From NCBI GenBank assembly GCA_020718085.1, contig DYDB01000002.1, forward strand, positions 52,386-99,316: a stretch of 46,931 nt of DNA, in the 5' to 3' direction. Below are positions 3,944 through 44,291 of this stretch, one piece after another; position 1 is the first letter of the stretch; each line of letters begins with the position of its first letter. The notes below the pieces were generated by a model, which was given only the letters and a program-made list of their open reading frames with translations, ran no database searches and was not told the DNA's origin. This DNA comes from Micavibrio sp. (lineage in GTDB: Bacteria; Patescibacteriota; Minisyncoccia; Moranbacterales; GCA-2747515). Made by a program: the position numbers and the translations under genes.

Positions 3944-3975
3944 AATGTTTTCATATTAAAATTATAGAGATAAAA

Positions 3976-4392: not shown

Positions 4393-4400
4393 AGGTAAAT

Positions 4401-4427
4401 TATAAATGCATCATTGTTGCATTTATA
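4401..4427. promoter_or_regulatory. Candidate Zur operator (10-bp perfect inverted repeat)
   Basis: TATAAATGCA and its exact reverse complement TGCATTTATA are separated by 7 bases (tcattgt). The repeat covers the predicted transcription start (about 4418) and three bases of the -10 of the zur promoter, so an occupied site would block the promoter. AT-rich palindromes of this size are typical of Fur/Zur operators. Binding by the neighbouring regulator is inferred. Confidence 0.7.
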
Positions 4428-4453
4428 TTAGAACACAAATTTATGTATGTCAA
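4425..4453 (-). promoter_or_regulatory. Promoter of the zur-znuACB operon
   Basis: On the minus strand a perfect TTGACA (4453-4448) is followed by a 17-base spacer and TAATAT (4430-4425). Transcription would start near 4418, about 26 bases before the zur ATG. This is the best -35/-10 pair seen in the window. Confidence 0.75.
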
Positions 4454-4485
4454 TCACAGTTATTATTTTTTCACCTAAACAAATG

Positions 4486-4494
4486 TGATATAAT
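4486..4494 (+). promoter_or_regulatory. Extended -10 promoter of the 4522 gene
   Basis: TGATATAAT is a perfect extended -10 (TGn plus TATAAT). A start near 4501 would give a leader of about 20 bases with no Shine-Dalgarno before the ATG at 4522. It points away from the zur promoter. Confidence 0.65.
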
Positions 4495-4521
4495 GAACTT
4501 GTAAATATCAAAATAAAAAAC

Positions 4522-5178: not shown

Positions 5179-5203
5179 AAAATAGAACTATATACAACAC
5201 ATA

Positions 5204-5236
5204 AAAATCCCTATCAGCATTGCTGATAGGGATTTT
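5204..5236. terminator. Bidirectional intrinsic terminator
   Basis: A 16-base arm at 5204-5219 is the exact reverse complement of 5221-5236, giving a long stem with AAAA on one side and TTTT on the other. It lies between convergent genes and can serve both. Confidence 0.88.
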
Positions 5237-5262
5237 GGTTTTATGCGAATGTTATCGCAAGA

Positions 5263-7128: not shown

Positions 7129-7260
7129 TGTTCACTCCTTTTTTGCAAGTAATTGTTGATTGAAACTCTTTAACTCACATGCTTTTTTTGATCTAGTGCC
7201 ACCTCCTTTTTTGAGTTTTGATGATGTGTAAGTTGTTAAGGGACGCATTTTTTCTGTGGC

Positions 7261-7282
7261 ATATCACATTAAATTGTGATAT
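7261..7282. promoter_or_regulatory. Palindrome in a divergent intergenic region
   Basis: ATATCACA and TGTGATAT are exact inverted arms separated by 6 bases. It lies between the DUF1566-M23 gene (minus) and the PGPGW gene (plus), and its right arm overlaps a TGATATGGT extended -10-like element for the plus gene. It could be an operator. No regulator gene is adjacent. Confidence 0.45.
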
Positions 7283-7318
7283 GGTGAAAATGTTTATTCT
7301 CACACGCGATCCCTTCAT

Positions 7319-7546
7319 ATGATTGACAAAACAGTATCATGGGTAAAGATTTTTATCAATAGACATCCTGCACTTAAAACAACTCTGGGTGTGGTTTTGG
7401 TGATAATTGGTATTGCTGCACTCGTGACACCACTTACACCAGGTTCGTGGCTTGCGCTTATCGGTCTGGAGTTCCTCGGCTTGCGGATCGTATTGCGTGA
7501 TTGGGTACTTAAACAAAAAGAGGTGTATATTGATCAAAAAAAATAA
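7319..7546 (+). CDS. Small PGPGW-type transmembrane protein
   Basis: A 75-residue membrane protein with two hydrophobic segments (about 21-38 and 42-60). The joining turn TPLTPGSWLALIGLEFLG corresponds to the P-x-LPGPGW motif and following glycine-rich helix of the PGPGW family, whose function is not known. Its stop is one base before the start of the next gene, so the two are probably co-translated. No TGG-rich or catalytic residues are seen. The family call rests on the turn motif and length. Confidence 0.7.
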   Translation: MIDKTVSWVKIFINRHPALKTTLGVVLVIIGIAALVTPLTPGSWLALIGLEFLGLRIVLRDWVLKQKEVYIDQKK

Positions 7547-7547
7547 T

Positions 7548-8051
7548 ATGAACATACAATTACATGTGCAACCATTTCAGGAAACACTACATGCAAGCAT
7601 GTGTGGTCCGGCATCACTCAAGATCGTTTTACGACATTATGGATTAGATAAAACAGAAGAAGAATTAGCAAAAATGTGTAATGTAGATGCAGATCTGGGT
7701 ATTTCTGATGAGGATATTAAAAGAGTTGCCACAAAACTTGGTTTTGTAGTGAAAATTAAAAACGAGGCATCTTTGGAAGATATTGCAAAATGGTTGAGTC
7801 TTGGTGTGCCACTAATCGTAAATTGGTTTACGCGAGGACGCATGGACTACGATGAGGATGATGTAGCTGACGGTCATTACTCTGTGGTGACAGGATTGGA
7901 TGATACATATATTTATGTTCAAGATCCGGAAGTAGGGCGTGTGCGTAAGATCACACGTGAGAATTTTGCGCATGTATGGTTTGATTTTACGGGTGCACAC
8001 ATCACACCAGACACATTGATCGTACGACAATTTATTGCAATTTATAAGTAA
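7548..8051 (+). CDS. C39-like papain-fold cysteine peptidase domain protein
   Basis: A 167-residue protein from the ATG at 7548; the longer open frame to 7452 overlaps the previous gene and is not used. The catalytic set of the peptidase C39-like family is visible: Cys19 in MCGPASLKIVLRHYG, His near residue 110 in DGHYSVVTG and Asp near 127 in VQDPEVG. There is no signal peptide, transmembrane segment or ABC domain, so it is not a bacteriocin-exporting C39 protein. Stand-alone members are common but poorly studied. A cytoplasmic role cannot be specified. It ends 7 bases before chorismate mutase. Confidence 0.85.
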   Translation: MNIQLHVQPFQETLHASMCGPASLKIVLRHYGLDKTEEELAKMCNVDADLGISDEDIKRVATKLGFVVKIKNEASLEDIAKWLSLGVPLIVNWFTRGRMDYDEDDVADGHYSVVTGLDDTYIYVQDPEVGRVRKITRENFAHVWFDFTGAHITPDTLIVRQFIAIYK

Positions 8052-8058
8052 TTTTCTT

Positions 8059-8328
8059 ATGGCAGAAATACGAAATGCAGATGAAAAGATCAGTGCTTTG
8101 CGTGAAGAGATTGATGCGATCGATCGACAAATCTTTGATCTTTTAGTTGCGCGATTTACATGTGCGCATGAGATTGGTGTTGCTAAAAAAGCAAATGGGT
8201 ATGCGATCACCGACTTGAATAGGGAAAATGTTCTCATTGATCGTGCTGTGGCGCAAACGGGTTTTGATCGAGGATTTATTGAAAATTTTTATGCTGTGAT
8301 CATTGCAAGATCAAAAGAGCAACAATGA
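8059..8328 (+). CDS. Chorismate mutase (AroQ class)
   Basis: An 89-residue all-helical protein of AroQ type. The motif ISALREEIDAIDRQIFDLLV with R in the following LVAR is helix 1; AKKANGY holds the active-site lysine; ITDLNRENVL supplies the Asp, Arg and Glu of the second block; and a Gln near the C-terminus (KEQQ) matches the last ligand. The protein would convert chorismate to prephenate. Its start is the ATG at 8059, not the TTG at 8035 that overlaps the preceding gene. No other aromatic biosynthesis gene is nearby, so its metabolic setting is unclear. Confidence 0.88.
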   Translation: MAEIRNADEKISALREEIDAIDRQIFDLLVARFTCAHEIGVAKKANGYAITDLNRENVLIDRAVAQTGFDRGFIENFYAVIIARSKEQQ

Positions 8329-8362
8329 GTTTGTAAGAAGAGCCTGCGTATGTGAACGAATA

Positions 8363-8371
8363 TGATAAAAT
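8363..8371 (+). promoter_or_regulatory. Extended -10 upstream of the P-type ATPase
   Basis: TGATAAAAT matches the extended -10 pattern seen before several other genes here. It implies a start near 8378 and a leader of about 40 bases. Confidence 0.5.
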
Positions 8372-8417
8372 GACAGAGATGCTGACAAATGTATAAGTCC
8401 TAATAGTATGAAAAAAG

Positions 8418-10955
8418 ATGATCGAGAAAAATAGTGGCTTGAATGCCAATGAAGTCAAAATGCGGTTGGCACGTGATGGATTTAATGAATTGCCATCACA
8501 GAAAAGGCAAAGTGCATTTTCCATTTTTATAGGCGTGATCAAGGAGCCCATGCTTTTTTTGCTTATTGCTGCCGGTGGTATCTATTTATCTCTGGGTGAG
8601 GTGCAAGATGCGGTGATGCTATCGGCATTTGTTTGTGTTGTTGTGGGCATCACTTTTTATCAGGAGAGAAAAACAGAGCGCGCTCTTGAAGCACTTCGCG
8701 ATCTGTCCAGTCCACGTGCTTCGGTGGTGCGCGACGGTGAGCAATATGTGATCCCTGGGCGTGAAGTGGTATGTGATGACGTGGTGGTTTTACGTGAAGG
8801 TGCTCGCGTCCCTGCTGATGCCGTTGTGATCTCGTCAACACATTTATATGTGGATGAATCACTACTTACGGGAGAGTCCGCACCCGTACGCAAAAGTGAA
8901 TGGGATGGACTCGTGCAGCTCACGCAACCCGGAGGAGATGATCTGCCGTTCGTTTTTTCCGGAACAATGGTGACACAAGGTCATGCACTTGTACGTGTTA
9001 CATCTACAGGAATGAACACTGAAATTGGTAAAATCGGTATTGCATTACAGTCCATCGAAGAAGAAGAAATGCTTCTCACAAAAGAAACGCGCGTATTGGT
9101 TCGTAACTTTGCTATTGTCGGGGCGCTATTGTGCATCTGTGTTTTGACGGCATATGGGTTTTTCTATCATGATTGGATCAAAGGTGTTTTGTCCGGATTG
9201 TCATTGAGCATGGCACTTTTACCCGAAGAATTCTCTGTTGTTTTGGTAGTATTTTTAGCGATTGGTGCGTGGCGTATGTCGCGACAGCGTGTTTTGGTGA
9301 GAAGATCTGCAGCGATTGAAACGCTTGGAGCCGCGACAGTGTTGTGTGTTGATAAAACGGGAACATTAACTCTCAATGAAATGCGATTAGCAAGCATGAT
9401 GGTCGGAGATGAGTTTTTTGATCTTGATACGGAGGAAGAAAAATTCATGCCGGAAAAATATCAGACATTATTAAAATGCGCGCTGCTTGCCAGTCAACAT
9501 GATCCCTTTGATCCGATTGAAAAAGAAGTGCATCGTACATGTGACATTGTGTTGCATGCAACAGATGTGCATCTTGATACGCAGTGGAAGTTATTGCGAG
9601 AGTATCCGCTGTCAAAAGAGCTTCTTGCTTTATCACATGTGTGGATGTCGGTAGATAACAATGTGTGCATTGCTGCTGCCAAGGGTGCGCCAGAGGCGAT
9701 CATTGATCTTTGTCATATGGATCATATACACAGTGAGAACATTATGCAAAAAGTGAAGAGCATGTCACAAAATGGTCTGCGTGTCCTTGGTGTGGCACAA
9801 GCAACAGTAGATTGTCCCGATCTTGCACGTGATCAGCATGATTATTCTTATGAATTTGTCGGACTCATCGGCTTTGTGGACCCTGTGCGATCATCGGTTG
9901 TGCAAGCAGTACAAGAGTGTTATGACGCCGGCATACGTGTCATTATGATCACAGGTGATTATCCGGGGACGGCGCAATTTGTGGCAAAAGAGATCGGCCT
10001 CAAGAATGCTGATGAATATATCACTGGTGCTGATTTGAAAAAATATGATCGTGCGGCACTGTGTAAGCGTATTCAAGATGTTAATATTTTTACACGTGTT
10101 GTACCAGAGCAAAAATTAGCGATCATTGATGCCCTCAAAGCAAATGGTGAGATCGTGGTCATGACCGGTGATGGCGTTAATGATGCACCGGCATTGAAAT
10201 CGGCACATATCGGTGTTGCAATGGGAAAGCGTGGTACGGATGTGGCGCGTGAGGCATCTGACCTTGTGCTCTTGGATGATCATTTTCTATCTATTGTGCA
10301 AGCAGTAAAAATGGGTCGTCGTATTTTTGATAATCTCAAGAAAGCGATCGCATATATTTTTGCCGTGCATATCCCAATTGCGGGCATGTCTCTTATTCCG
10401 GTCATTTTTCATTTGCCAATCGTTCTTTTTCCTGCACACATTGCTTTTCTGGAACTTATTATCGATCCGGCATGTTCTGTGGTTTATGAATCGGAGAAGG
10501 CAGAGAAGGGAATCATGCGTCGCAACCCGCGCAATCTCAAGAAACGATTGCTGGATCGGCCAACGTTCGTGGTCAGTTTGCTGCAGGGCATAAGCGTTTT
10601 AATGGCAACGCTTGTGATATATGTTTTAGCATTACATTGGCAATTTGATGAAGAAAAAATTCGTACGATCACTTTTATTACACTTGTATTTGGAAATCTG
10701 ATGTTGATCATTACGAATTTGGCACAGTGTAAAAGCTTCGTGAAGATCTTGCGTGAAGATAATAAAGCCTTGAAATACATTCTTGGTGCTACGATGATCT
10801 GTCTCACGCTCATATTATATGTACCATTTTTGAGAGAGATCTTTCACTTTGGTAAATTGCATATGCAAGATATCTTTGTGAGTCTTTGTGTAGCATTTCT
10901 GAGCATTGTGTGGTTTGAATTATATAAGATGATCACAAAAAAAGATCTTGTGTGA
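8418..10955 (+). CDS. Cation-translocating P-type ATPase (P2-like)
   Basis: An 845-residue P-type ATPase complete in all cytoplasmic motifs: an N-terminal cation-ATPase domain (GLNANEVKMRLARDGFNELP), actuator TGES at 151-154, phosphorylated Asp312 in DKTGTLT, the nucleotide-domain KGAPE, and the hinge GDGVNDAP from residue 584. Helix M4 carries LLPEEFSVVLVVFLAIGAWR, so the ion-site proline is followed by EE rather than the EGL of SERCA. That variant is common in uncharacterised bacterial P2-like pumps. About ten membrane helices are predicted, four of them after the hinge. Calcium is possible but the ion is not proven. The start at 8418 fits the usual N-terminus; the ATG at 8408 runs into a stop. 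Confidence 0.93.
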   Translation: MIEKNSGLNANEVKMRLARDGFNELPSQKRQSAFSIFIGVIKEPMLFLLIAAGGIYLSLGEVQDAVMLSAFVCVVVGITFYQERKTERALEALRDLSSPRASVVRDGEQYVIPGREVVCDDVVVLREGARVPADAVVISSTHLYVDESLLTGESAPVRKSEWDGLVQLTQPGGDDLPFVFSGTMVTQGHALVRVTSTGMNTEIGKIGIALQSIEEEEMLLTKETRVLVRNFAIVGALLCICVLTAYGFFYHDWIKGVLSGLSLSMALLPEEFSVVLVVFLAIGAWRMSRQRVLVRRSAAIETLGAATVLCVDKTGTLTLNEMRLASMMVGDEFFDLDTEEEKFMPEKYQTLLKCALLASQHDPFDPIEKEVHRTCDIVLHATDVHLDTQWKLLREYPLSKELLALSHVWMSVDNNVCIAAAKGAPEAIIDLCHMDHIHSENIMQKVKSMSQNGLRVLGVAQATVDCPDLARDQHDYSYEFVGLIGFVDPVRSSVVQAVQECYDAGIRVIMITGDYPGTAQFVAKEIGLKNADEYITGADLKKYDRAALCKRIQDVNIFTRVVPEQKLAIIDALKANGEIVVMTGDGVNDAPALKSAHIGVAMGKRGTDVAREASDLVLLDDHFLSIVQAVKMGRRIFDNLKKAIAYIFAVHIPIAGMSLIPVIFHLPIVLFPAHIAFLELIIDPACSVVYESEKAEKGIMRRNPRNLKKRLLDRPTFVVSLLQGISVLMATLVIYVLALHWQFDEEKIRTITFITLVFGNLMLIITNLAQCKSFVKILREDNKALKYILGATMICLTLILYVPFLREIFHFGKLHMQDIFVSLCVAFLSIVWFELYKMITKKDLV

Positions 10956-10998
10956 TCAATGAGTATGTAAAATTGCCCATATTGACCAAAATATCGAG

Positions 10999-11032
10999 AA
11001 CGACTATAGTGTGTGAATGTAGTCGTTTTTTT
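10999..11032 (+). terminator. Intrinsic terminator after the P-type ATPase
   Basis: AACGACTA (10999-11006) pairs with TAGTCGTT (11020-11027) over a 13-base loop and runs into a T tract. Confidence 0.75.
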
Positions 11033-11063
11033 ACAGATCAATAGAACCAATGGAGGTTGGGAC

Positions 11064-12170
11064 ATGCAAAAAGGAAAGAAGGACAAAGGTGCTCAGTATG
11101 TTGTTATTATGGCTGGCGGCTCTGGTAAGAGATTGTGGCCAGAGTCGCGATCACGCAAACCAAAGCAGTTTCAATGTTTGGTAAGAAAAGATCAAACATT
11201 ACTGCAGGAAACGCATGCGCGTGTTAAGGATCTTGTGCCTGCAGGCCACGTTTTTGTTTCTACAATTACTGAATATGCAGAGATCGTGCGTGAACAATTG
11301 CCGGATATTCTACCGGAAAATATTATCATAGAGCCGTGCGGTCGTGATACAGCGCCTGCGCTTGCATTTGTTGCAGATCATATCAATCGCTTGAATACTG
11401 AAGCAATCATTCTTACTGTACCATCAGATCATACGGTCAAGGAGGTCGGTCTTTTTGCGGGTGTGGTCAATACAATGTTTCACGTGGTTCGTTTCCATCC
11501 AGAAAGAATCGGGCTTATAGGTATCAAAACCACAGAGGCAAGTACGGCGCTTGGATATATTAAGATGGGAAATGAAATGAGGCAAAAATTTTCTCACGCA
11601 GTGTATCGCGTGGCTTCTTTTGCGGAAAAACCTTCTGAGGAAAAAGCGAAAGAATATTTTAATGATTGGCAATATTTGTGGAATTCTGGATGTTTTGTTT
11701 TTTGCGCCAGCACATTATTGGATCAAATCAGAGCGCATGCGCCAGAGATCACGCAAGTGTTGATGCGGATGCGAGATGTTTCTGATCTAGATATGAAGCA
11801 TGATCTTTTTGCCACACTGCCGTCCAAACCGATTGATACAACGGTTTGGGAAAAACTTGCAGATACGGATTTGTTCGTTGTGCCTGCAAATTTGACTTGG
11901 AGCGATGTGGGCAATTGGCGATCATTGCATGATTTTCATCGCAGTGATGATCTACAACAAAATTATTTTCGGGGCACAGTCGTTGATATTGATACAACAA
12001 ACAGCTTTATCTTTGGCGATAAAGAGACTGTGATCGCAACACTTGGTCTCGATGGTATTGTCGTTGTTAAATCGGGTGGTGTGATCTTTGTTGCTGATCG
12101 CAAGCGAGTGGAAGATGTAAAAGTGGTAGTTGCAAAGATCCAGAAACAAGGACTTGATGGATTATTGTAG
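11064..12170 (+). CDS. manC: Mannose-1-phosphate guanylyltransferase
   Basis: A 368-residue nucleotidyltransferase that would make GDP-mannose from mannose-1-phosphate and GTP. The signature VVIMAGGSGKRLWPESR with KPKQF near residues 12-40 is the GTP-binding loop of this family; FAEKPSEEKAKEY and WNSGCFVF, and later WSDVGNWRSL, are the sugar-phosphate blocks of GMP-type enzymes. It lacks the C-terminal cupin isomerase domain, so it is monofunctional. The ATG at 11064 has GGAGG 7 bases before it, which settles the start over the GTG at 11013. GDP-mannose would feed the glycosyltransferases encoded after 29 kb. It is flanked by terminators and so forms its own unit. Confidence 0.93.
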   Translation: MQKGKKDKGAQYVVIMAGGSGKRLWPESRSRKPKQFQCLVRKDQTLLQETHARVKDLVPAGHVFVSTITEYAEIVREQLPDILPENIIIEPCGRDTAPALAFVADHINRLNTEAIILTVPSDHTVKEVGLFAGVVNTMFHVVRFHPERIGLIGIKTTEASTALGYIKMGNEMRQKFSHAVYRVASFAEKPSEEKAKEYFNDWQYLWNSGCFVFCASTLLDQIRAHAPEITQVLMRMRDVSDLDMKHDLFATLPSKPIDTTVWEKLADTDLFVVPANLTWSDVGNWRSLHDFHRSDDLQQNYFRGTVVDIDTTNSFIFGDKETVIATLGLDGIVVVKSGGVIFVADRKRVEDVKVVVAKIQKQGLDGLL

Positions 12171-12185
12171 ATACCCATTGATCAC

Positions 12186-12221
12186 AAAAAAGCCGATTGT
12201 CAGTGAACAATCGGCTTTTTT
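12186..12221. terminator. Strong intrinsic terminator after manC
   Basis: A 15-base stem (12186-12200 with 12207-12221, loop cagtga) has A and T tracts on either side, so it may work in both directions. Confidence 0.9.
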
Positions 12222-12289
12222 CATCATAATATGTGAAATAATTATTTAAAAAAAGTGTACTAGTAAGAAGTTAATAACATCACGAATTT

Positions 12290-12871
12290 ATGAACACACA
12301 TCTTATTTTTTATGCGCATCCAAACAAAAAAGGTTTTTGCGGTGAGTTCTTGCGCGCAGTAGAAGAACATATGCAAAAGAAGGGGCATGTTTATGAGGTA
12401 ATTGATCTGTATGCCATTGGTTATGATCCGATCATGAAAAATGAGGAACATTACACTTCTGGAGGATATGAGATCGCATCGGAAAATAAAATTTTTCAAG
12501 AAAAGATCACACAAGCAACATCTCTCATTTTTATCTATCCAACATGGTGGCAAAATATGCCGGCAATTCTTAAGGGTTTTGTCGATCGTGTATTTACAGC
12601 AAGATATGCCTTTAGATATGTGAATGATCTTCCCGTGGGACTTCTCAAAGGGCGCAAGGCAGTTGTATTTACATCATCTGGTGGTCCACGTGTATATACA
12701 CGGTTTTTTGCAGGCGATCGTGCAGTAAAGGTTTTGGCAAAAGACGTACTTGCTTTTTGTGGTATAAAAACAAAGTGTTTTCCGATTGGTGGCGCGCGAA
12801 AGCTTACAGATGTAAAGAAAAAAAATATCGAAAAACTTGTGCAAAAAGGCATGAAATTTTTAAGTTTGTAG
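12290..12871 (+). CDS. NAD(P)H oxidoreductase, flavodoxin-like fold (MdaB/KefF family)
   Basis: A 193-residue protein with the FMN phosphate-binding start LIFYAHPNKKGFCGEFL, the helix-strand pattern of quinone reductases, and IFIYPTWWQNMPAILKGFVDRVF (about 80-102), the hallmark substrate and FMN loop of the NAD(P)H dehydrogenase (quinone) family. It then has the usual FTSSGGPR strand. It is likely a soluble FMN enzyme reducing quinones or similar compounds with two electrons. It lies 6 bases before the ASCH gene and is probably co-transcribed with it. The physiological acceptor is unknown. Confidence 0.88.
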   Translation: MNTHLIFYAHPNKKGFCGEFLRAVEEHMQKKGHVYEVIDLYAIGYDPIMKNEEHYTSGGYEIASENKIFQEKITQATSLIFIYPTWWQNMPAILKGFVDRVFTARYAFRYVNDLPVGLLKGRKAVVFTSSGGPRVYTRFFAGDRAVKVLAKDVLAFCGIKTKCFPIGGARKLTDVKKKNIEKLVQKGMKFLSL

Positions 12872-12877
12872 AAAAGA

Positions 12878-13201
12878 ATGAAAATAATGAAATTTCGCAA
12901 GCATCTTAGCGTGCATGTTCTTGCTGGGACAAAAACTGTAACATGGCGACTTTTTGATGATAAGGATCTTTCTGAGGAGGATGTGGTTTCTTTTGTAATA
13001 TGGGAGACGGGAATAGAGTTCGCACGAGCAAAATTGAAAAGTGTTATACAAAAACCTCTCGGTCAATTGGAAGAAAATGATTGGCAGGGACATGAACGGT
13101 ATTCTGATAGTGAAGAGATGTGTCACACATTTACAAAATATTACGGGAAAATAGTTGACTCACGTACAATGGTCAAGATCATCACATTTGAAATATTATG
13201 A
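12878..13201 (+). CDS. ASCH domain protein
   Basis: A 107-residue protein from ATG 12878 (a second ATG at 12887 is as good). It has the ASCH/PUA-like pattern MKFRKHLSVHVLAGTKTVTWR, where the helix and the K-T-x-T-W-R strand form the putative RNA-binding cleft, then WETGIEFARAKL and the ending D-W-x-G-H-E-R followed by FTKYYGK. ASCH proteins are thought to bind RNA or act on modified nucleosides; a few are amidohydrolases of N4-acetylcytidine. This small stand-alone form is frequent in CPR genomes. The substrate is not known. Confidence 0.8.
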   Translation: MKIMKFRKHLSVHVLAGTKTVTWRLFDDKDLSEEDVVSFVIWETGIEFARAKLKSVIQKPLGQLEENDWQGHERYSDSEEMCHTFTKYYGKIVDSRTMVKIITFEIL

Positions 13202-13246
13202 TCTTTCTTTTATGATTAAGTGTAATAATAATTAACGTATATTTCT

Positions 13247-13633
13247 ATGAAGAAATTCTTTAAGGAGTTCCAAGAATTTGCAGTAAAAGGCAATGTAATG
13301 GATCTGGCGGTTGCTGTGGTCATTGGTAATGCTTTTGGCAAAATTGTCACATCACTTGTGAATGATATCATCATGCCTCTCATGGGTATTGTGCTTGGAG
13401 GACTTAATTTTACGAAACTGGAGGTGACATTGGAAGATATTACGTTAAAGTATGGGAACTTTTTGCAATCGATCGTGGATTTTGTCATTATCGCATTTTG
13501 TATCTTTGTTGCGGTAAAAATGATGAATGTCGTGATAAAGAAAAAAAAGGCGGAAGAAAAAAAAGAAGGAAAGGCTAACGCAAAAGAAGTTGAGCTTCTT
13601 GTGGAAATTCGGGATTTATTAAAGAAAAAATAG
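13247..13633 (+). CDS. mscL: Large-conductance mechanosensitive channel MscL
   Basis: A 128-residue channel of standard length. The amphipathic N-terminal helix MKKFFKEFQEFAVKGNVMDL runs into TM1 (AVAVVIGNAFGKIVTSLVNDII), which holds the gate-forming small residues; a periplasmic loop and TM2 (VDFVIIAFCIFVAVKMMN) follow, and the C-terminal bundle ends E-x-x-LL-x-EIRDLLKKK. All family blocks are present. It would release solutes upon hypo-osmotic shock. The HAD gene follows with no spacing, suggesting a shared transcript. Confidence 0.96.
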   Translation: MKKFFKEFQEFAVKGNVMDLAVAVVIGNAFGKIVTSLVNDIIMPLMGIVLGGLNFTKLEVTLEDITLKYGNFLQSIVDFVIIAFCIFVAVKMMNVVIKKKKAEEKKEGKANAKEVELLVEIRDLLKKK

Positions 13634-23606: not shown

Positions 23607-25445
23607 ATGGACATGACGCAAAATGAAAATAATTTAGATATAAAGGATCAAGGTCCAATAGAAGATCACACGGATAGTGATCAGATTGCTGTACAGCCTA
23701 CACAAGATGAAACGACAGAGCCCTTGGGAACTATAATAATAGAAGATTCCGAGGAGCAAAAAAATGTCATTGAAGATCAGATCATCTCGCGTGCAAAGGA
23801 CTTGGGTGTGAAGTATGTAATAGAAATGCCGACTAACGCAAACCGGGAGTCTGTCCAGTTGATCTCTGAAGATATTGCACGAAAAAATAAGATCGCGATT
23901 TTTGATCGTGATAAAAAAGATAAAATATTACATGTTGCAATGAGTGATGTGCAGGATGTAAATGCATTGAATATTCTTCGCTTTATTGCACAAAAAGACC
24001 ACATGAGCATTGAGGTGTATTTGACATCTGATGACTTGTTGGACAAACTGTATGGATTATATGGAAGTGCGGAAAAAGCCGTTGAGGACGTCGTGCAATC
24101 TTTTGAGATCGAAGGAGAAACAAAAACTGATGTGCTAAATGTGATCGGAGAGAAAGAGAGTATCCAAGATGCGCCTGTTGCAAAGTTGGTGCATGTGATC
24201 ATTAAACATGCATTGGATGGTAAAGCGTCGGATATTCATATTGAACCGATTGATAAGACATATCGCGTTCGATTTCGTCAGGACGGTATTTTGCATGCAT
24301 CGCTTACATTTCCGCAAGAGGTGGGCAAAGCAGTAATTTCACGTATTAAAATTCTTTCAAATTTAAAGATCGATGAGAGGCGTAAGCCACAAGATGGACG
24401 TTTTCGCATTAGTGATCAGGGGGATGATATTGATTTTCGTGTATCCAGCCTTCCCGTTGTGGAGGGAGAAAAGATCGTAATGCGTGTTTTGGAAAAAGAT
24501 CGACAAACATTTGATTTGATCGAACTCGGTATGATGGGAACGCAGCATGAGATGTTCTTGGAACGCATCAAAGATCCATTTGGCATGATTCTTATGACAG
24601 GTCCGACCGGCTCTGGAAAATCTACAACTCTCTATGCTTTTTTAAAAATTTTGAATGGGGAGGAACGAAATATTATTACGCTTGAAGATCCTGTAGAATA
24701 TTTTGTGCCGGGCATTAATCAATCACAAGTCAAACCAGAAATCGGTTATTCATTTGCAAGTGGGCTACGCAGTATCTTGCGTCAGGATCCAAATGTCATC
24801 ATGGTGGGAGAGATTCGTGATGGTGAGACTGCAGAACTTGCGGTGCACGCAGCACTTACGGGACATCTTGTTTTTTCTACAGTGCATACGAACAATGCCA
24901 TAGGTGCATTACCGCGTTTGATCGATCTTGGCATTGAACCATTCCTGATCGCGTCTGCTGTTCGTGTGATCGCGGCCCAGCGTTTGGTGCGTAGTATTTG
25001 TCTTGATTGCAAAGAAGAAATGCACATGCCGGATAATATTATCACAAAGATCAAACGTGAATTGGAAGGTGTATCTGAGGAGGAAATGAAAAAGTATGGA
25101 TTGGATATATCACAAGGATTCAAATTTTATCATGGCAAGGGATGTAAAAATTGTGCCGATCTCGGATTAAAAGGACGTCTCGCGCTTTATGAAGCAATTG
25201 AAGTGGATAATGAAATGCAAAATTTGATCGTGGAGGAAGATGGAAATATTGTGCACATTGAACGTTTGGCGCGAAGTAAGGGATTTATCACTTTAAAACA
25301 AGATGGTATACTAAAAATGCTGCTTGGATTGACAACCTTATCTGAGCTGGAACGTGTGACAGAGGGAGATATGAGCATTGGCGGGAAGATCGATGAAGTG
25401 ACTGATGAGGAGCAAATTTATGAGGACCTCAAACACAAGCATTGA
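23607..25445 (+). CDS. pilB: Type IV pilus extension ATPase
   Basis: A 612-residue hexameric motor that drives pilin polymerisation. The N-terminal domain carries a GspE/MshEN-like fold (about 60-160) that in other members binds nucleotide signals. The core has Walker A GPTGSGKSTT near 332-341, the Asp box (ITLEDPVEYFVPGINQ), Walker B VGEIRDGETAELAV, the His box TGHLVFSTVHTNNA and a zinc tetracysteine CLDC...CKNC (about 466-520). All catalytic glutamates are present. The start is ATG 23607, or the ATG six bases later. It precedes the response regulator and pilT. Confidence 0.96.
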   Translation: MDMTQNENNLDIKDQGPIEDHTDSDQIAVQPTQDETTEPLGTIIIEDSEEQKNVIEDQIISRAKDLGVKYVIEMPTNANRESVQLISEDIARKNKIAIFDRDKKDKILHVAMSDVQDVNALNILRFIAQKDHMSIEVYLTSDDLLDKLYGLYGSAEKAVEDVVQSFEIEGETKTDVLNVIGEKESIQDAPVAKLVHVIIKHALDGKASDIHIEPIDKTYRVRFRQDGILHASLTFPQEVGKAVISRIKILSNLKIDERRKPQDGRFRISDQGDDIDFRVSSLPVVEGEKIVMRVLEKDRQTFDLIELGMMGTQHEMFLERIKDPFGMILMTGPTGSGKSTTLYAFLKILNGEERNIITLEDPVEYFVPGINQSQVKPEIGYSFASGLRSILRQDPNVIMVGEIRDGETAELAVHAALTGHLVFSTVHTNNAIGALPRLIDLGIEPFLIASAVRVIAAQRLVRSICLDCKEEMHMPDNIITKIKRELEGVSEEEMKKYGLDISQGFKFYHGKGCKNCADLGLKGRLALYEAIEVDNEMQNLIVEEDGNIVHIERLARSKGFITLKQDGILKMLLGLTTLSELERVTEGDMSIGGKIDEVTDEEQIYEDLKHKH

Positions 25446-25894: not shown

Positions 25895-26995
25895 ATGAGC
25901 TCCTTGCATGTTGAACAGAGATTAAAGAACTTATTGCGACTGGGTGCACAACAAAATGCGTCAGATCTTCACTTTGCTGTGGGACGACATCCGACCCTTC
26001 GTATTGATGGAAAACTTATTCCACTCGAGCAAGAAGCTGTGCTGTTGCCAGAGGATACGAAGGCGTTTGCAGATTATTTTATGAACTCACACCATAAAGA
26101 AAAATTTCTCGAAAACGGAGAAATTGATTTTTCATACAGTTTGGAAGACAAAGTTCGTTTTCGTACCAATGTTTTTTATCAAAGAGGTTATGTGGGTATT
26201 GTCATGCGTGTGATCAATAGCAATATCCGACCGCTTGATGAATTGGGTGTGCCACAACTGGTATATGAATTTGCGAATTTTTCACAAGGACTATTTCTTG
26301 TAACCGGACCTGTGGGTCATGGTAAATCAACAACTCTTGCAGCGCTCGTGGATTATATCAATCACAATAAAAAAAGCCATATTATTACAATCGAAGATCC
26401 GATTGAATATATGTATGAACAAGATCTTTGCATTATCAATCAACGTGAAATTGGGCAAGACTCTCAAACATTCGCAGGTGCTTTGCGTGCAGCTCTTCGT
26501 GAGGATACCAATGTGATCTTGATTGGTGAAATGCGTGATCTGGAGACGATTGGTACGGCAATCACTGCTGCAGAAACAGGACACCTCATCTTTGCCACAC
26601 TTCACACCAATGATGCTGCGCAAACAATTGATCGTATCGTTGATACGTTTCCATCACATCAACAAAATCAAATTCGTGCGCAATTGGCAAATGTTCTCCT
26701 TGGTGTAATGTCGCAACGTTTGATTCCGCATACAAATGGTGGGCGTATTCCTGCATGTGAGATCATGATCAAAAATCATGCAATTGAGAACCTCATTCGT
26801 GAGGATAAGACATATCAAATTGATACTGTAATTGAAACAGGTTCTAAAGACGGGATGATCTCTCTTGATAAATCATTGGCGCAACTTTTGCAGTCAGGAG
26901 ATATTTCTTTGGACTATGCAATGACCTATGCAAAAAATCGTGATTACGTGCGAATGCTGGTGGGACGTGGAGAGCAGATTCATATTGAAGAATAA
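25895..26995 (+). CDS. pilT: Type IV pilus retraction ATPase PilT
   Basis: A 366-residue motor. N-terminal PAS-like domain (ASDLHFAVGRHPTLRIDGKL) at about 20-100; Walker A GPVGHGKSTT near 139-148, which differs from the more common GPTGSGKST but keeps the G-x4-GK-S/T pattern; Asp box IEDPIEYMYEQ, Walker B IGEMRDLETI and His box TGHLIFATLHTNDAA follow. No C-terminal AIRNLIRE block is exact, but AIENLIRED is its counterpart. PilT disassembles the pilus for twitching or DNA uptake. The shape and length are those of PilT, not PilB. Confidence 0.95.
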   Translation: MSSLHVEQRLKNLLRLGAQQNASDLHFAVGRHPTLRIDGKLIPLEQEAVLLPEDTKAFADYFMNSHHKEKFLENGEIDFSYSLEDKVRFRTNVFYQRGYVGIVMRVINSNIRPLDELGVPQLVYEFANFSQGLFLVTGPVGHGKSTTLAALVDYINHNKKSHIITIEDPIEYMYEQDLCIINQREIGQDSQTFAGALRAALREDTNVILIGEMRDLETIGTAITAAETGHLIFATLHTNDAAQTIDRIVDTFPSHQQNQIRAQLANVLLGVMSQRLIPHTNGGRIPACEIMIKNHAIENLIREDKTYQIDTVIETGSKDGMISLDKSLAQLLQSGDISLDYAMTYAKNRDYVRMLVGRGEQIHIEE

Positions 26996-27115: not shown

Positions 27116-28324
27116 ATGCAATTCAAATTTAAAGCGACGACACGTGAAGGTGAAGTAAAACGAGGCAAAATTGAAGCAATTGATAAGGAAGCGGCAACAA
27201 AACTACTGCAGACGAATGATCTCGTGCCGCTTGAACTTAAAGAAGTGAAACAGAGCACATCCATCTCCGGTGTTTTGGAACGAATGACATCTTCTATCAC
27301 ACAGAAAGATCTCTTACTTTTTTATCGTCAACTTTCAACTCTTGTGGGTGCAAAAATTCCGATTGCACCGGCACTGCGTACAATTCACAATCAGACACAA
27401 AATGCGCAATTACGCATCGTGGTCACGGAGGTGGCTGCTGATGTGGAGGATGGTATGGCAATTTCAGAGAGCTTTGCAAAACATGAAAATGTTTTTACCA
27501 CTCTTGCAGTAAGTATGATCAGAGCGGGAGAATTATCGGGAAATTTGCAAGGCGCGATTGACTTTGTGGCTGAAAGTGCAGAACAGAATTATCAACTTAA
27601 AAGTAAGGTGCGTGGGGCACTTATGTATCCCGTTTTTGTGATCAGTGTTGCCATGGTAATTGGTTTTTTGACGATGACGTGGATATTGCCAAAGCTCACA
27701 CAAGTTATTAAAGACCTAAATGTGGAGATTCCATGGTATACCCAGCTCATGATCAAGATCGGTGATTTTATGCAAGCATATTGGTGGGCGGTACTTGTTG
27801 TGATCTTTGCACTTGTAGGAGCAATGATCTATTATGCACGATCTGAGGATGGAAGTAAGGAGTGGGACCGGATCAAGTTGCATATCCCAATTATTGGACA
27901 ACTGTTTCAATATGTTTACATTACACGTTTTTCAGAAAATCTTTCCGTGTTGCTCAAGGGAGGCATTCCAATCGTGCGTGCACTTATTGTTGTGGGTGAT
28001 GTGGTGGATAATATTGTGTATAAAAATATCATTCTCAAAGCTGCACAAGATGTAAAAGTTGGCGGTGAGATCAATAAGGAATTTTTCAGACATGAAGAAT
28101 TTCCACCGATGGTGTCCAGCATGATCAAGATTGGTGAAGAAACGGGACGTCTCAGTGAAATATTGGAAGATGTGGCACGGTTTTATAATGCAGAAGTAGA
28201 TCAAATTACACGCAATCTGTCATCGATCATTGAACCTATTCTTATCGTTATTTTGGGTATCGGTGTTGGTGTGTTGGTGTTTTCCGTATTGTTGCCAATT
28301 TACAATATTGCGGGACAATTATAA
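27116..28324 (+). CDS. pilC: Type IV pilus inner membrane platform protein PilC
   Basis: A 402-residue platform protein with two T2SSF domains. The N-terminus MQFKFKATTREGEVKRGKIEA is the classical start; domain 1 holds LLLFYRQLSTLVGAKIPIAPAL and the pair of helices near 170-230; domain 2 holds FSENLSVLLKGGIPIVRALI, the paired repeat of the first. GEETGRLSEILEDVA is the last block, followed by the C-terminal helix. It sits inside the cytoplasmic ring of PilB/PilT and hands pilins to the fibre. The spacing to pilT (121 bases) is wider than in the rest of the operon. Confidence 0.95.
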   Translation: MQFKFKATTREGEVKRGKIEAIDKEAATKLLQTNDLVPLELKEVKQSTSISGVLERMTSSITQKDLLLFYRQLSTLVGAKIPIAPALRTIHNQTQNAQLRIVVTEVAADVEDGMAISESFAKHENVFTTLAVSMIRAGELSGNLQGAIDFVAESAEQNYQLKSKVRGALMYPVFVISVAMVIGFLTMTWILPKLTQVIKDLNVEIPWYTQLMIKIGDFMQAYWWAVLVVIFALVGAMIYYARSEDGSKEWDRIKLHIPIIGQLFQYVYITRFSENLSVLLKGGIPIVRALIVVGDVVDNIVYKNIILKAAQDVKVGGEINKEFFRHEEFPPMVSSMIKIGEETGRLSEILEDVARFYNAEVDQITRNLSSIIEPILIVILGIGVGVLVFSVLLPIYNIAGQL

Positions 28325-28629: not shown

Positions 28630-29025
28630 ATGAAAAAAGGTTTTACATTGATCGAACTTTTGATTGTTATCGCAATCATCGGTATCTTGGCATCTATTGT
28701 GTTGGTATCGTTGAACAGTGCACGTAACAAAGCAAAACAAGCATCATTTAAATCATCAGCATCATCAATTGCCCCAGCAGCGATTTTGTGTTGTGACCAG
28801 GTTGGCGCAACCCTTAATGCGACTGCAGGTGCAGAAATTTGCTCTACAGCAATCGGCGCAACATACCCAGCATCACCAGTGATCAGCAGTGTGTCAGTTG
28901 CAAATCAGTGTTCCGGAGGCAATTTTCGACTTACTATTACTGCTAACTCAAGCGAAGCTGGCGGTTGTACAAGTGCAACGGTTACAGAAACAGCAACAAC
29001 TTTTGCGGGTGCAGGGTGTACTTAG
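28630..29025 (+). CDS. pilA: Type IV pilin (probable major pilin)
   Basis: A 131-residue prepilin with a four-residue leader, MKKG, cleaved before [20 protein letters not shown]; Glu at +5 of the mature form is present. The rest is rich in Ala, Ser and Thr and holds six cysteines: an adjacent CC pair (about residues 54-55), then C in EIC, NQC, GGC and AGC. The same six-cysteine order is seen in the second pilin at 39466. The strong ribosome binding site and placement after pilC argue that this is the main subunit. Ser/Thr-rich loops are possible glycosylation sites; that is inference. Confidence 0.93.
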
Positions 29026-39465: not shown

Positions 39466-39882
39466 ATGCGAGCCGAAAAGGGATTTACGCTCATTGAACT
39501 TTTGATCACAGTTGCGATCATTGGTATTTTGGCCTCGATCATCATGACAACCATTGGGTATGCTCGTGATAGAGCAAAAGATGCCTCGTTCAAATCAAGT
39601 GTGGCTACGATCCATAAGGCGGGAATCATGTGTTGTGATGAAAATGGGGAAATCCAGGCAAAAGCGGTAAATGCCGGAGTTCCCGTACAAATTTGTACCG
39701 ATGGAGACATGACGGATAGCATTTATCCAGATGATTTGCATATTGGCGCTGTAACAGTGGCGGCGCAGTGTGATTTTGATGGACATTTTGAGATTGTAAT
39801 TACACCAGGGACACTAAATTCAGGAAATTGTACGAGTATCACATATAGTGAGATCGGTTTTGTGAGCAGTGAGGGCTGTTGA
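39466..39882 (+). CDS. Type IV pilin, second copy
   Basis: A 138-residue prepilin with leader MRAEKG cut before [20 protein letters not shown]; Glu+5 is present. It is clearly a paralogue of the pilin at 28630: both go on with A-R-(N/D)-(K/R)-A-K and S-F-K-S-S, have an adjacent CC pair, and then IC, QC, a CTS and a terminal GC, giving six shared cysteines. The middle is richer in Asp and Glu than in the first pilin. No strong ribosome binding site, so it may be less abundant. It opens the pilD/minor pilin group. Confidence 0.92.
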   Translation: MRAEKGFTLIELLITVAIIGILASIIMTTIGYARDRAKDASFKSSVATIHKAGIMCCDENGEIQAKAVNAGVPVQICTDGDMTDSIYPDDLHIGAVTVAAQCDFDGHFEIVITPGTLNSGNCTSITYSEIGFVSSEGC

Positions 39883-39968: not shown

Positions 39969-40766
39969 ATGATTTATATAATTCTCTTTTTCATTTATGG
40001 ATTGGTAATTGGCAGTTTTTGTAATGTTGTAATTCATCGCTTGTACACAAGAGAGGGCGTTGTCCTTCAACAGTCGCATTGTCCGCATTGTAAGTCTGAC
40101 ATTATATGGAAAGATAACATCCCTCTATTGAGCTACTTTATATTACGTGGTAAGTGTCGTGTGTGTCGACAAAAAATTTCCATGCAGTATCCTCTGGTGG
40201 AAGTTACAACGGGAGTCCTTTTTGGTGTTGTGGGATTTTTTTATACTAATGGATCAATAGACAACCTGCTCATTGCTGTTTTGTATGCTTTTGTGTTTGC
40301 ACATCTTATGGTGATATTTGTGTATGATTGGAAGCATATGGAAATTCCTATGAGCGTCATGTGGATGGCGATCATGCTTTCCTTTGTCATAAATGTAATG
40401 ATAGATATACATGCACATGCTTTTGCAGAAAATTTATGGGAAAGCATAAGTTTTTTGCATGGTGCAAGTGCGCTAGTAGCATTCTGTTTCTTCTTTGGAT
40501 TGAGTTATGTGTCAGATGAAACTTGGATGGGCTACGGTGATTCGTTCATTGCAATTGTTTTGGGTTTAATTTTGGGTCCAATCGCAACATTTGTGGCACT
40601 CCTCACAGCATTTTGTGTTGGTGCAATTTATGGCATTGGATTGATGGCTGTGAAAAAGCGTTCACTGAAAACAGAGATTCCATTTGGACCATTCCTTATT
40701 TTTGGACTTTTTACGGCATTTATCCTGCAATATGCATATCCTGATCTTTTTTCTTTTTTTATTTGA
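39969..40766 (+). CDS. pilD: Prepilin peptidase / N-methyltransferase
   Basis: A 265-residue A24 aspartic peptidase. The N-terminal methyltransferase part has GSFCNVVIHRL and four cysteines in CPHC and CRVC (about 38-65). The two catalytic aspartates are in VYDWKHMEIP (about 117) and GYGDSF (about 190), the GxGD motif. About eight helices. It would cut the leaders of the six prepilins in the window and methylate the new N-terminus. This is the only such peptidase seen. The spacing to the next gene is 49 bases with its own promoter. Confidence 0.95.
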   Translation: MIYIILFFIYGLVIGSFCNVVIHRLYTREGVVLQQSHCPHCKSDIIWKDNIPLLSYFILRGKCRVCRQKISMQYPLVEVTTGVLFGVVGFFYTNGSIDNLLIAVLYAFVFAHLMVIFVYDWKHMEIPMSVMWMAIMLSFVINVMIDIHAHAFAENLWESISFLHGASALVAFCFFFGLSYVSDETWMGYGDSFIAIVLGLILGPIATFVALLTAFCVGAIYGIGLMAVKKRSLKTEIPFGPFLIFGLFTAFILQYAYPDLFSFFI

Positions 40767-40815: not shown

Positions 40816-41421
40816 ATGATTGTAAAAGTAAAAACAATGCAAAACAAAAAAGGTTTTTCACTCTTGGAAATGATCATTATTGTTGCGATCATTGTGATCA
40901 TGACGATGGTCATGTTTGTGATCTCATTTAAGGATCGATCAACAAAAGAACTTGAGGCTGTTGGTCGTGAAGTGGCAGCAGCAATTCGTGAAGCACAAAA
41001 TAATGCATTGACAGGACGTCAGCGTGGCAATGATCAATTGCCGTGTTCTTTTGCTTTTCAAATAACTGATGGTGGAGGAGGTTATAGTATTAGAGGTACA
41101 CAGAGACCATCTGATGATGTCTGTCCAGATGATGAGGAAATTTCGTTTTATAACAATATTTTCTTGCAAGAAAACTTGTCCGAAAATGATACGCATATTG
41201 CAGGTACGGACAGTAATGGGAATGCTAGTTCCCATGTGATCTTTACAGTGCCATACGGAAAATATTATGATAGCGGAACAGGTGCAACCACACCGAGTAC
41301 AGGTACTGATTTTGTTATTACAAAAGACGGTGAAGAGAAAAAATTTCATGTGTGCGTATATTCAACCGGTTTGATCGAAGAACTTGGATTTAATGATAGT
41401 GATGGAGCATGCCCATTTTAG
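40816..41421 (+). CDS. Minor pilin, GspH/FimT-like
   Basis: A 201-residue prepilin-type protein. The cleavage motif is KKG before FSLLEMIIIVAIIVIMTMVM; ATG 40816 gives a 12-residue leader, and ATG 40837 (MQNKKG) a more usual one of six. The helix runs on to EAVGREVAAAIREAQNNALTG, which resembles the GspH/FimT block where the helix turns toward the globular domain. There are four cysteines in the C-domain. It likely belongs to the minor pilin set that starts a fibre. Confidence 0.85.
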   Translation: MIVKVKTMQNKKGFSLLEMIIIVAIIVIMTMVMFVISFKDRSTKELEAVGREVAAAIREAQNNALTGRQRGNDQLPCSFAFQITDGGGGYSIRGTQRPSDDVCPDDEEISFYNNIFLQENLSENDTHIAGTDSNGNASSHVIFTVPYGKYYDSGTGATTPSTGTDFVITKDGEEKKFHVCVYSTGLIEELGFNDSDGACPF

Positions 41422-41432
41422 TAAAAAATGTT

Positions 41433-42089
41433 ATGTTTATGAAAATGCGTAAAAAAGAAAAAGGGTTCTCGATTGGCGAGGTGATGGTTGCCATGTTTAT
41501 CTTGCTTGTGGGTATTGTAGATGCGATATTTTTGACCGTACGTAGCGTGGAAGGTTTGCATGACAGTCGCGACGCAGTGATTGCCACACTGCTTGCACAA
41601 GAAGGTGTGGAATTAGTGCGTAATGTGCGAGATAATAATGTGACACAGGATTGTCCTGGAGATCAACGATGCACGGCGTTTGATGAACAATATGGATTTC
41701 TTTCTGTTACGGGAGCGCCGATTTCGTGGTGTACGATAGATTATGATACGGATACGGACGATTCTCATCTTGATTGTTCAGGAGCAAGTCGGGATGATCG
41801 TCTGTATCTTAATAATGAAAGAGAATTATATGATCATGGGGGAGGATCTGGCACATACCTCGATACGGAATTGAGGAGACGGATTTACGTTGAATACGAC
41901 ACATCCGATAATCTGCCATTAAATGCTTCTACGCCAGTTGACCAAATTACAGCAAATGTGACAAGTGTAGTGGTTTTTGGGGAAGCGGATTTCCCAGATT
42001 CAGGAAATATTGAGACAGAATGCATGATCGCACGAGGTTGTGTGTATGCACAAACGCGACTTACATCGTGGATCAATTATGGGGAGTGA
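41433..42089 (+). CDS. Minor pilin, PilV-like
   Basis: A prepilin-type protein of 218 residues from ATG 41433; the frame is open to ATG 41409, overlapping the previous gene by 13 bases, and ATG 41439 and 41445 are also possible. The motif is EKG before FSIGEVMVAMFILLVGIVDA, typical of PilV with Glu+5. LAQEGVELVRNVRDNN is the PilV/PilW-type start of the globular domain. It holds several CxxxxC-like pairs. It is part of the H-V-W-X order. Confidence 0.85.
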   Translation: MFMKMRKKEKGFSIGEVMVAMFILLVGIVDAIFLTVRSVEGLHDSRDAVIATLLAQEGVELVRNVRDNNVTQDCPGDQRCTAFDEQYGFLSVTGAPISWCTIDYDTDTDDSHLDCSGASRDDRLYLNNERELYDHGGGSGTYLDTELRRRIYVEYDTSDNLPLNASTPVDQITANVTSVVVFGEADFPDSGNIETECMIARGCVYAQTRLTSWINYGE

Positions 42090-42114: not shown

Positions 42115-42819
42115 ATGATCGATAATATGATGAAAAAACGAAAAGGCTTTACACTTATTGAACTTATGGTGTCGATTTTCATTTTTCTCATTATCATGAC
42201 GGCGATTGTGGCCATTTTTGCGAGGCAAATTCAGGCATATCGTCACGCACGTGTGTCACAAGGTGACTTGGAAAATGCGCAGTTTGCCATGAATTACATC
42301 GCAAAGACACTTCGTACAGCTACTGTTCTCGGAGAAAATAATACTGACCTGCGTGATGCTGTACAATTTGAAGATGCAGATTTCGCAAAATATAAAATTG
42401 AATCTTCCAATAAACTGGTTCTGTATGACTTTTCTCAAGAACTGTGCATGCGTTTCTTTTTTGCTACAGGAAACGGAGCACATCCATACACGGATCATGG
42501 AGATCAAGCATTGTGGGTAGAGTCGGTTGAGGGCGTGGGTTTTGATCAGATTGAGGAATGTTTGTCCGATATAACATATGACGGCCCAACATACAAGTAT
42601 GAGCGATTAACAAGTGGAGATGTCACAGGAACATTTTGGATTGCTCCCACACGATATGAAGATCAATTGGGTTCGAAAAGAACGGACACAATTGGGCGCG
42701 TGACGATTGGTATGTCTGTTTTGCCGAAAAAGGAAAACATACTTTATGATGATCGAGAACCTGTGTTCATTCAGTCTTCTGTATCGCTGAGAGATTATCC
42801 GCCGGATCTCAGTTTCTAG
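42115..42819 (+). CDS. Minor pilin, PilW-like
   Basis: A 234-residue prepilin-type protein. MIDNMMKKRKG is the leader, cut before FTLIELMVSIFIFLIIMTAI; Glu+5 present. The block LENAQFAMNYIAKTLRTA (about 57-74) matches the PilW/GspJ helix. Two cysteines are in the globular part, and the last 40 residues are charged. It lies 25 bases after the PilV-like gene, with a trace of AATTAAG repeat between. Confidence 0.87.
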   Translation: MIDNMMKKRKGFTLIELMVSIFIFLIIMTAIVAIFARQIQAYRHARVSQGDLENAQFAMNYIAKTLRTATVLGENNTDLRDAVQFEDADFAKYKIESSNKLVLYDFSQELCMRFFFATGNGAHPYTDHGDQALWVESVEGVGFDQIEECLSDITYDGPTYKYERLTSGDVTGTFWIAPTRYEDQLGSKRTDTIGRVTIGMSVLPKKENILYDDREPVFIQSSVSLRDYPPDLSF

Positions 42820-42841: not shown

Positions 42842-44230
42842 ATGAAATATCATCAAAAAGGATCCATTGTTGTTTTTGCACTTATCGTATTGTCATTTAT
42901 TCTCATTGCAGCATTTTCTGTTGCGGCAGTGACGCTGGTGGAGCGACGCAGTGCCAATATTTCTGTAAATTCTACAACGGCATTTCAACAAGCGGACAAG
43001 GGCATGGAAGAATTTTTGCAACAACTCTATAAAGATCTGGAACAAACAGACACGCTTAATACGCTCACAGCTAAATTAAATGAGATCTATGGATCTGGAA
43101 TGTACACATGTCAAGATCCTTCAGCTGCGGCGAGTGCGAGCATACCATCATATATTGGTGATGAGGATACAGAATTTATTATTTCTGCCTATATGGAAAA
43201 GCCAGTTGAGGCTCATAATGCAGGATGGAATAATGATGCTCTTATTCCGATTAGAGATTGTGGAACGGAACTTGCAGATGTGGCGCGTTTCAAGGTAGCG
43301 GGAAATTATAGCACAGCTGTACGTGCGATTTTTGTAAAATTGCGCGATAGTTTGACGCGTGGACTCGTAGCACACTGGTCATTTGAGGATCGGGCGATCA
43401 ATTCACGTTTGACAGAGAATGAGGAAGCACATATCGCACAGGATCTATCCAAAAACGATCACATACTGACATTGTGTCATCCTGAGGATCTGCCAATCAA
43501 AGTTGAATTAACAGATGGTACGGACATGGGAGATGTTGTGACATTTACGGATTGTGCGGAAAATAGCAGTGATTTTATTGTTCCTGAAAAAGATGAGGCG
43601 TGGGTGGAAGGCTTTGTGCTTGAAACGGTAGATCCTGGTCCACTTGGCGATGATGCACAAGAAGCGATTTATTTTGATGGCAATGACTATTTGGCAATGT
43701 ACGCCAAGGATAGTTGTGCTGCAGACGATTACAACTGTGTGGAAAATGATACAGAAAACAAAATTAGTGATCTTACTAATGGGATCACGATCTCTCTGTG
43801 GATAAAACCTGACAGCACAACATCTACTGGCACACTTATATCACAATATAGTAGCAATAATGGATTCAAAATATATTTGGATGCAGGAAAGCCATGTTTT
43901 ATGTTGCAAAATAAAAAGGCGTGTGCGGATGACGCTATTAGTGATGAATGGCATCATGTTGTGGGACGATGGCGTGAGGGAGAAGTAGTGAAAATTATTG
44001 TAGATGATAAAGAGAAAGAGGGTGAATCGTTAAATGCTTCTATAACTGTGCCTGACGAAACGTTGTTCGTAGGTTCTCAAGATGATACAACAGGATTTTA
44101 TACGGGTGCAATTGATGATCTGCGTATGTGGGATCGATCATTAACGGATGCAGAAGTTAATCGTTTGTGTACGATCGCACAAGGTAGTCCGGAAGATCCA
44201 GATGATCTGGACCCGAAATGCTTTAAATAA
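42842..44230 (+). CDS. PilX-like minor pilin with LamG/concanavalin-like domain
   Basis: A 462-residue protein. The N-terminus MKYHQKGSIVVFALIVLSFI is a prepilin-like start with QKG before a hydrophobic helix but without Glu+5, as in PilX/GspK, which caps the fibre. Residues 40-175 hold an alpha/beta region. From RGLVAHWSFEDRAINS (about 177) to the end runs a LamG/concanavalin-like module: YFDGNDYLAM, ITISLWIKPDS near 316, EWHHVVGRWREGE near 377, DDKEKEGE and FYTGAIDDLRMWDRSLTDAEV near 418-438 are its standard strands. Such modules bind glycans or proteins. A tip adhesin is inferred. Confidence 0.85.
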   Translation: MKYHQKGSIVVFALIVLSFILIAAFSVAAVTLVERRSANISVNSTTAFQQADKGMEEFLQQLYKDLEQTDTLNTLTAKLNEIYGSGMYTCQDPSAAASASIPSYIGDEDTEFIISAYMEKPVEAHNAGWNNDALIPIRDCGTELADVARFKVAGNYSTAVRAIFVKLRDSLTRGLVAHWSFEDRAINSRLTENEEAHIAQDLSKNDHILTLCHPEDLPIKVELTDGTDMGDVVTFTDCAENSSDFIVPEKDEAWVEGFVLETVDPGPLGDDAQEAIYFDGNDYLAMYAKDSCAADDYNCVENDTENKISDLTNGITISLWIKPDSTTSTGTLISQYSSNNGFKIYLDAGKPCFMLQNKKACADDAISDEWHHVVGRWREGEVVKIIVDDKEKEGESLNASITVPDETLFVGSQDDTTGFYTGAIDDLRMWDRSLTDAEVNRLCTIAQGSPEDPDDLDPKCFK

Positions 44231-44265: not shown

Positions 44266-44291
44266 AAAGCCCTCCAAAAGAGGGCTTTTTT
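44266..44291 (+). terminator. Intrinsic terminator after the minor pilin operon
   Basis: AAAGCCCTC and GAGGGCTTT form a 9-base stem with a CAAAA loop, followed by further T. Confidence 0.88.

Follow-up and report, generated by a model that had tools for sequence, protein, structure and literature searches.

A PilX-type minor pilin with a C-terminal LamG module, a candidate pilus-tip adhesin of Candidatus Moraniibacteriota

Introduction

Why should the last minor pilin of a type IV pilus operon carry a LamG-type domain, and could such a protein take part in the recognition of a host? The question is raised by a gene in a 46,931-nucleotide stretch of DNA (hereafter the window, meaning the whole stretch analysed) from Candidatus Moraniibacteriota (Patescibacteria), to which both the source genome and its named relatives belong. 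To our knowledge, host recognition by uncultured Patescibacteria is largely unknown.

Results

A pilin and a LamG fold in one reading frame

The gene lies on the forward strand at 42842..44230 (ATG at 42842, stop at 44230) and encodes a 462-amino-acid fusion of a PilX-type minor pilin and a LamG module. As it is conserved over its full length, at 46-55% identity, in 5/5 same-genus genomes, the frame is not a product of chance. Residues 1-172 (42842..43357, +) make up the pilin part, which we call the carrier; a short linker, about RDSLTRG, stands between it and the LamG/ConA-like module of residues 173-446 (43358..44179, +), whose first strand is GLVAHWSFED and whose last is RMWDRSLTDAEVNRLC.

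Residues 310-440 (43769..44161, +) match Laminin_G_3 (Pfam PF13385) with 82.2 bits against a cut-off of 27.6 (E 5.5e-23), and the same domain is found in all 14 of the full-length family members aligned. The alignment sets the beginning of the module before the Pfam match, with GLVAHWSFED at residue 174, and its whole span (~173-446) at ~275 residues; together with the jelly-roll fold described below, this bears out the LamG-type module of ~280 residues that an initial annotation of the window had claimed. Between the first and the later LamG strands lies an acidic, Cys-containing insertion (residues ~191-305; 43412..43756, +), missing from the shorter homologues L020, L024 and L025. Its residues 191-272 have a mean identity of 37% within the genus, while the first LamG strand, at 82%, is the best-conserved part.

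A search of solved structures returned neuronal pentraxin-1 (E 3.4e-6). The AlphaFold2 prediction, built on an alignment of the window protein and four relatives, is poor for the whole protein (mean pLDDT 50.7) and usable for the LamG core alone, where pLDDT reaches 72-91 over residues ~311-400 and falls towards 440. This core superposes on ConA-like jelly rolls, among them pentraxins and perlecan/laminin LG3, with E ~1e-8 in Foldseek and Z ~16 in VIA-align. Jelly-roll halves from the binding domains of clostridial toxins are among the top structural matches, and there is a weak Pfam match to PF07953; with pentraxins and laminin LG domains scoring alike, we take these matches to reflect no more than a common ConA-like fold. 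We also set aside the NCBIfam family TafC (E 3e-5), which covers the LamG part alone with 23 bits, far below its 410-bit cut-off. Judged from the alignment, the pentraxin calcium motif is partly kept and is not retained across the genus. In general, LamG folds also occur in protein binding or in purely structural roles.

The carrier is of the PilX type

The carrier begins with the leader MKYHQKG, predicted to be cleaved at KG^S, and its mature start, SIVVF, has no Glu5; a hydrophobic helix and a small head follow. The invariant cysteines C90 and C140 lie in the head, which closes with a last strand of the form ...RAI/V.V. In the 18-row carrier alignment G7, S8 and F12 are invariant: G7-S8 is the predicted prepilin-type cleavage site, presumably processed by PilD, and F12 confirms that Glu+5 is missing, as had been annotated.

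The window protein has no match to PilX_N (PF14341) at E<=5 and none to N_methyl (PF07963) at E<=1. Among its relatives PilX_N is found weakly in 7/14 full-length members and, at E<=1e-4, in 31 of 78 carriers, most strongly in L119 (41.0 bits against a cut-off of 25.5). Since the window protein itself stays under the PilX_N threshold, its membership rests on these homologues and on its own marks. T2SSK, the GspK family, is matched by none of the 14 members at E<=5 and is absent from the 25 families listed for the 78 members at E<=1e-4. By sequence, the carrier is best placed with PilX_N and not with GspK: of the original label, 'PilX/GspK-like', the former half stands and the latter finds no support in the sequence. 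When the carrier was predicted alone (pLDDT 65), neither Foldseek nor VIA-align paired it with a solved pilin, so that the pilin fold of its head is putative.

GspK of type II secretion is a capping subunit without Glu5, with an alpha-domain inserted in the sheet of its head. The window protein likewise lacks Glu5 and carries an extra domain; its module, however, is C-terminal and all beta, its head counts only ~110 residues, and the T2SSK match is nil.

The gene closes a run of pilus genes

The LamG pilin closes a compact pilD-H-V-W-X run, all on the forward strand. The PilD-type prepilin peptidase (39969..40766), recognised by its signature in the translation and without an NCBIfam match, has relatives of 57-63% identity in the same position. 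It is followed by a GspH/FimU-like minor pilin (40816..41421; TIGR01708, E 1.9e-6, under cut-off), a PilV/GspI-like one (41409..42089; TIGR02523 PilV, E 9.2e-7, under cut-off) and a PilW/GspJ-like one of 234 amino acids with Glu5 present (42115..42819; N_methyl, E 7.3e-10). Directly upstream of the LamG pilin lies the PilW-like gene, an arrangement shared by the window and the family clusters read (L052, L053, L055, L057 and L058, with L056 and L054 read partly, as they meet contig ends), in which X is likewise the last pilin. In the family operons X alone is enlarged, with 365-546 amino acids vs ~170-280 for H, V and W.

A terminator-like hairpin with a 9-bp stem and a T run (44266..44288, +) lies 36 bases past the LamG-pilin stop and likely marks the operon end; terminator-like sites number 8 in the scanned stretch, against 3.1 expected by chance. 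The description of the protein as the last minor pilin of its set thus agrees with the order found: X after H/V/W, with the hairpin behind it.

Upstream of pilD stands a major-like type IV pilin with the GFTLIE motif (39466..39882, +; N_methyl, E 4.6e-9). The remaining machinery, also on the forward strand, comprises a PilB/GspE-type extension ATPase (23607..25445; TIGR02538/TIGR02533, E ~1e-155), the PilT retraction ATPase (25895..26995; TIGR01420, 453 bits, over cut-off), the PilC/GspF platform protein (27116..28324; TIGR02120, E 3.9e-101) and, beside pilB-pilT-pilC, a major-type pilin (28630..29025; N_methyl, E 8.6e-9); PilM, too, lies within the window. The annotated presence of PilT is hence upheld, and its TIGR01420 match is the single one over cut-off in the whole genome. 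PilY1 (PF05567) matched neither the window protein nor anything in 19 related genomes, a weak negative given that the controls were silent as well. On the reverse strand, the window also encodes a 612-aa protein (5263-7101) in which a repeat occurs twice in similar form (W[ST]..L..I.GMN / DWRLPN.VEL) and the C-terminal part is of a different kind.

Other pilus-related and LamG-bearing loci of the genome

A second type IV pilus-like cluster, without PilT, is found on another contig of the same genome (L048, G000:C14, ~3900-13500, reverse strand). It includes a PilB-like protein of 611 aa, PilC-like, PilM and PilN/O-like proteins, a 219-aa pilin, a 515-aa pilin bearing CarboxypepD_reg and a 535-aa PilX-like protein, whose unassigned tail (VVYGPMHVNGG-type) may be solenoid-like. 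In many of the order's genomes the carrier is matched a second time, more weakly, by an ORF of ~470-570 aa (e.g. G437:C3:89314, G486:C75:8189), perhaps the counterpart of this PilX-like protein.

Elsewhere in the genome, one open frame of 1010 aa holds a tandem pair of PilT/PilB-like ATPase matches (G000:C8:45090-47216). Another likely surface adhesin is a protein of 2241 aa (L049, G000:C16, 2063-8788, reverse strand) in which Laminin_G_3 and DUF2341 are each matched by two stretches.

Modules are exchanged on an order-wide carrier

A pilin+LamG ORF occurs in 14/17 genomes of the family, no full-length copy being detected in the remaining 3/17. A full-length profile run on the phylum drew in so many unrelated LamG proteins that it says nothing about pilins; a carrier-only profile, used in its place, finds the carrier pilin in 107/113 genomes of the order. 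The 78 distinct carrier ORFs divide into 26 with LamG, 12 bare, 9 with Fib_succ_major (11 by Pfam), 4 with propellers (2 LVIVD, 1 Kelch and 1 VPS10) and 27 others, which are unclassified rather than novel, as module assignment is incomplete. TSP1 was also found in the same slot. LamG-bearing minor pilins thus exist elsewhere in CPR, as the initial annotation had suggested checking. Bare carriers stop at the very strand after which LamG begins in the window protein, and the swapped modules are mostly of types known for binding.

On a carrier-only tree, the LamG distribution needs about nine gains or losses, which this quick method on 152 columns cannot separate from each other; at least four of them are forced by well-supported branches, and several branches are open. 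One branch (98, starred) unites 11 LamG-bearing carriers from the family to which the window belongs. The carriers of family f10 lie mostly away from other pilins; therefore, not all carriers are strict positional orthologues. One genome (G045; L026, L128, L141) has several carriers, with tails that are bare, Fib_succ_major, Fib_succ_major + TSP1 and others, as if a set of alternative tips were kept. Across the phylum at large, 132/287 genomes encode a protein with a PilX-type N-terminus; in one of these proteins (L160) it is joined to an RCC1 propeller, the module described for PilX2 of Nanosynbacter lyticus TM7x.

Within the genus, the LamG core retains 40% identity vs ~42-54% for H, V and W. 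Because the core diverges barely faster than its neighbours, an arms race is not clearly indicated, and we find accelerated evolution of the binding module unconvincing.

Discussion

We favour, with a probability of about 0.62, the reading of this protein as a modular tip pilin, whose carrier docks in the H/V/W/X tip complex and displays the LamG module for binding to a surface ligand. It is the best reading because the C-terminal module varies on one order-wide carrier. Gene content and known families suggest how it would work, from processing to a role towards the host. PilD would cut the carrier prepilin at KG^S, and X would join H/V/W in an initiation complex that starts the pilus at the filament end. 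Without Glu5, X should be unable to sit normally under another subunit and would consequently cap the filament; LamG, attached to the final strand of the pilin head, would be exposed at the tip. As the pilus grows, LamG would meet a ligand on some surface, most probably a glycan carried by a microbial host or by particles, and retraction by PilT would then pull the cell in. In one fused polypeptide, LamG-X would do the job of PilY1 in other bacteria.

Precedents make a tip adhesin plausible. The nearest are in Nanosynbacter lyticus TM7x (Saccharibacteria), where PilX1 has a beta-jelly roll and PilX2 an RCC1 propeller, and where deletion of pilX2 lowers host binding from 10.6% to 4.6%, function having been tested for PilX2 only (PMC12206443). 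Common to both systems are the patescibacterial background, a minor pilin of the PilX type extended by a C-terminal domain and no predicted PilD signal peptide; TM7x T4P locus one has PilT and PilD, likewise present in the window locus, and the T4P-1/T4P-2 split of TM7x is resembled by the window locus and the second cluster, L048. TM7x is genetically tractable, and those genes of its locus one that were tested proved essential. TM7x nevertheless belongs to a distant lineage of Patescibacteria, and the PilX1 jelly roll, compared here by description, is not termed LamG. In Streptococcus sanguinis, the lectin minor pilin PilC binds sialylated glycans and glycosaminoglycans (PMC9934059): there, too, a ConA-like lectin module is grafted on a minor pilin and proposed to sit at the tip, but PilC has a class III signal peptide with Glu5, an extra Ig-like module and an unrelated carrier, and it serves a monoderm pilus with just three minor pilins. 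In Myxococcus, a Glu5-less PilX is placed uppermost among the minor pilins of the tip complex, where it holds PilY1 (PMC7541494). The type IVa PilX of Myxococcus and Pseudomonas shares with ours the lack of Glu5 and, on our reading, the presentation of an adhesive part at the tip; its adhesin, PilY1, is a separate non-pilin protein, whereas the window module is fused to PilX itself.

Such tip-type proteins, for instance TM7x PilX1/PilX2 and S. sanguinis PilC, are already known. Moreover, a 2021 census of modular pilins counted PF13385 among the commonest added domains and listed several PF13385 pilins from CPR (PMC8179133), so with lectin-bearing modular pilins described, the novelty of the LamG pilin is below what a first reading implied. 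Like the proteins of that census, ours joins a pilin to an extra C-terminal module not specific to pilus biology. Membership there required, however, the N_methyl motif (IPR012902/PF07963), which the window protein lacks, and PilX-type carriers such as ours would be missed for this reason. What is freshest in the present work is that modules are swapped, across a whole order, on a carrier without Glu5, a type that such a survey would pass over.

The protein could adhere to something other than a host, such as sister cells, DNA, extracellular polysaccharide or inert particles. No feature of the sequence points to a particular ligand, LamG modules also belong to free-living bacteria (PF13385 is found in 5/14 control genomes), and the same genome has the separate 2241-aa LamG surface-type protein. 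We still hold such a purely non-host adhesin to be rather unlikely, as the one large-module PilX tested in Patescibacteria serves host binding and, according to that report, the cultivated Patescibacteria are all episymbionts (PMC12206443).

Two further alternatives would change the role of the module or its place. LamG might be a structural cap at the tip, a fold stabiliser or a stop to retraction, with adhesion left to something else; in Myxococcus the priming of extension is a further task of the tip complex, which has been proposed to act as a cork against retraction (PMC7541494), and the strong conservation of the first LamG strand within the genus is what a docking surface would have. 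That a module is dispensable for capping in the 12/78 bare carriers of the order, and that swaps among unrelated folds suit a binding function more readily than an unvarying mechanical one, leave this explanation improbable. We give slightly less credit still to a low-abundance subunit placed along the shaft with its LamG hanging sideways: where a modular pilin has a flexible linker, Raynaud et al. allow that it may lie in the filament body (PMC8179133), but the loss of Glu5 and the last-gene position of X mark a capping subunit (PMC7541494).

Returning to the modular tip pilin, we tentatively extend it to Moraniibacteriota as a whole, and perhaps to all Patescibacteria: the Glu5-less PilX may be a standard socket that accepts one receptor-binding module or another (LamG, Fib_succ_major, Kelch, LVIVD, VPS10, RCC1 or none), in effect a PilX-PilY1 fusion, and might be the main determinant of host range. 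Were this so, the type of host would be readable from the module. For the organism at hand, the LamG pilin provides a concrete, testable domain as a candidate for host recognition; for its relatives, a conserved pilin scaffold with exchangeable modules means that module, ligand and host can be asked about genome by genome.
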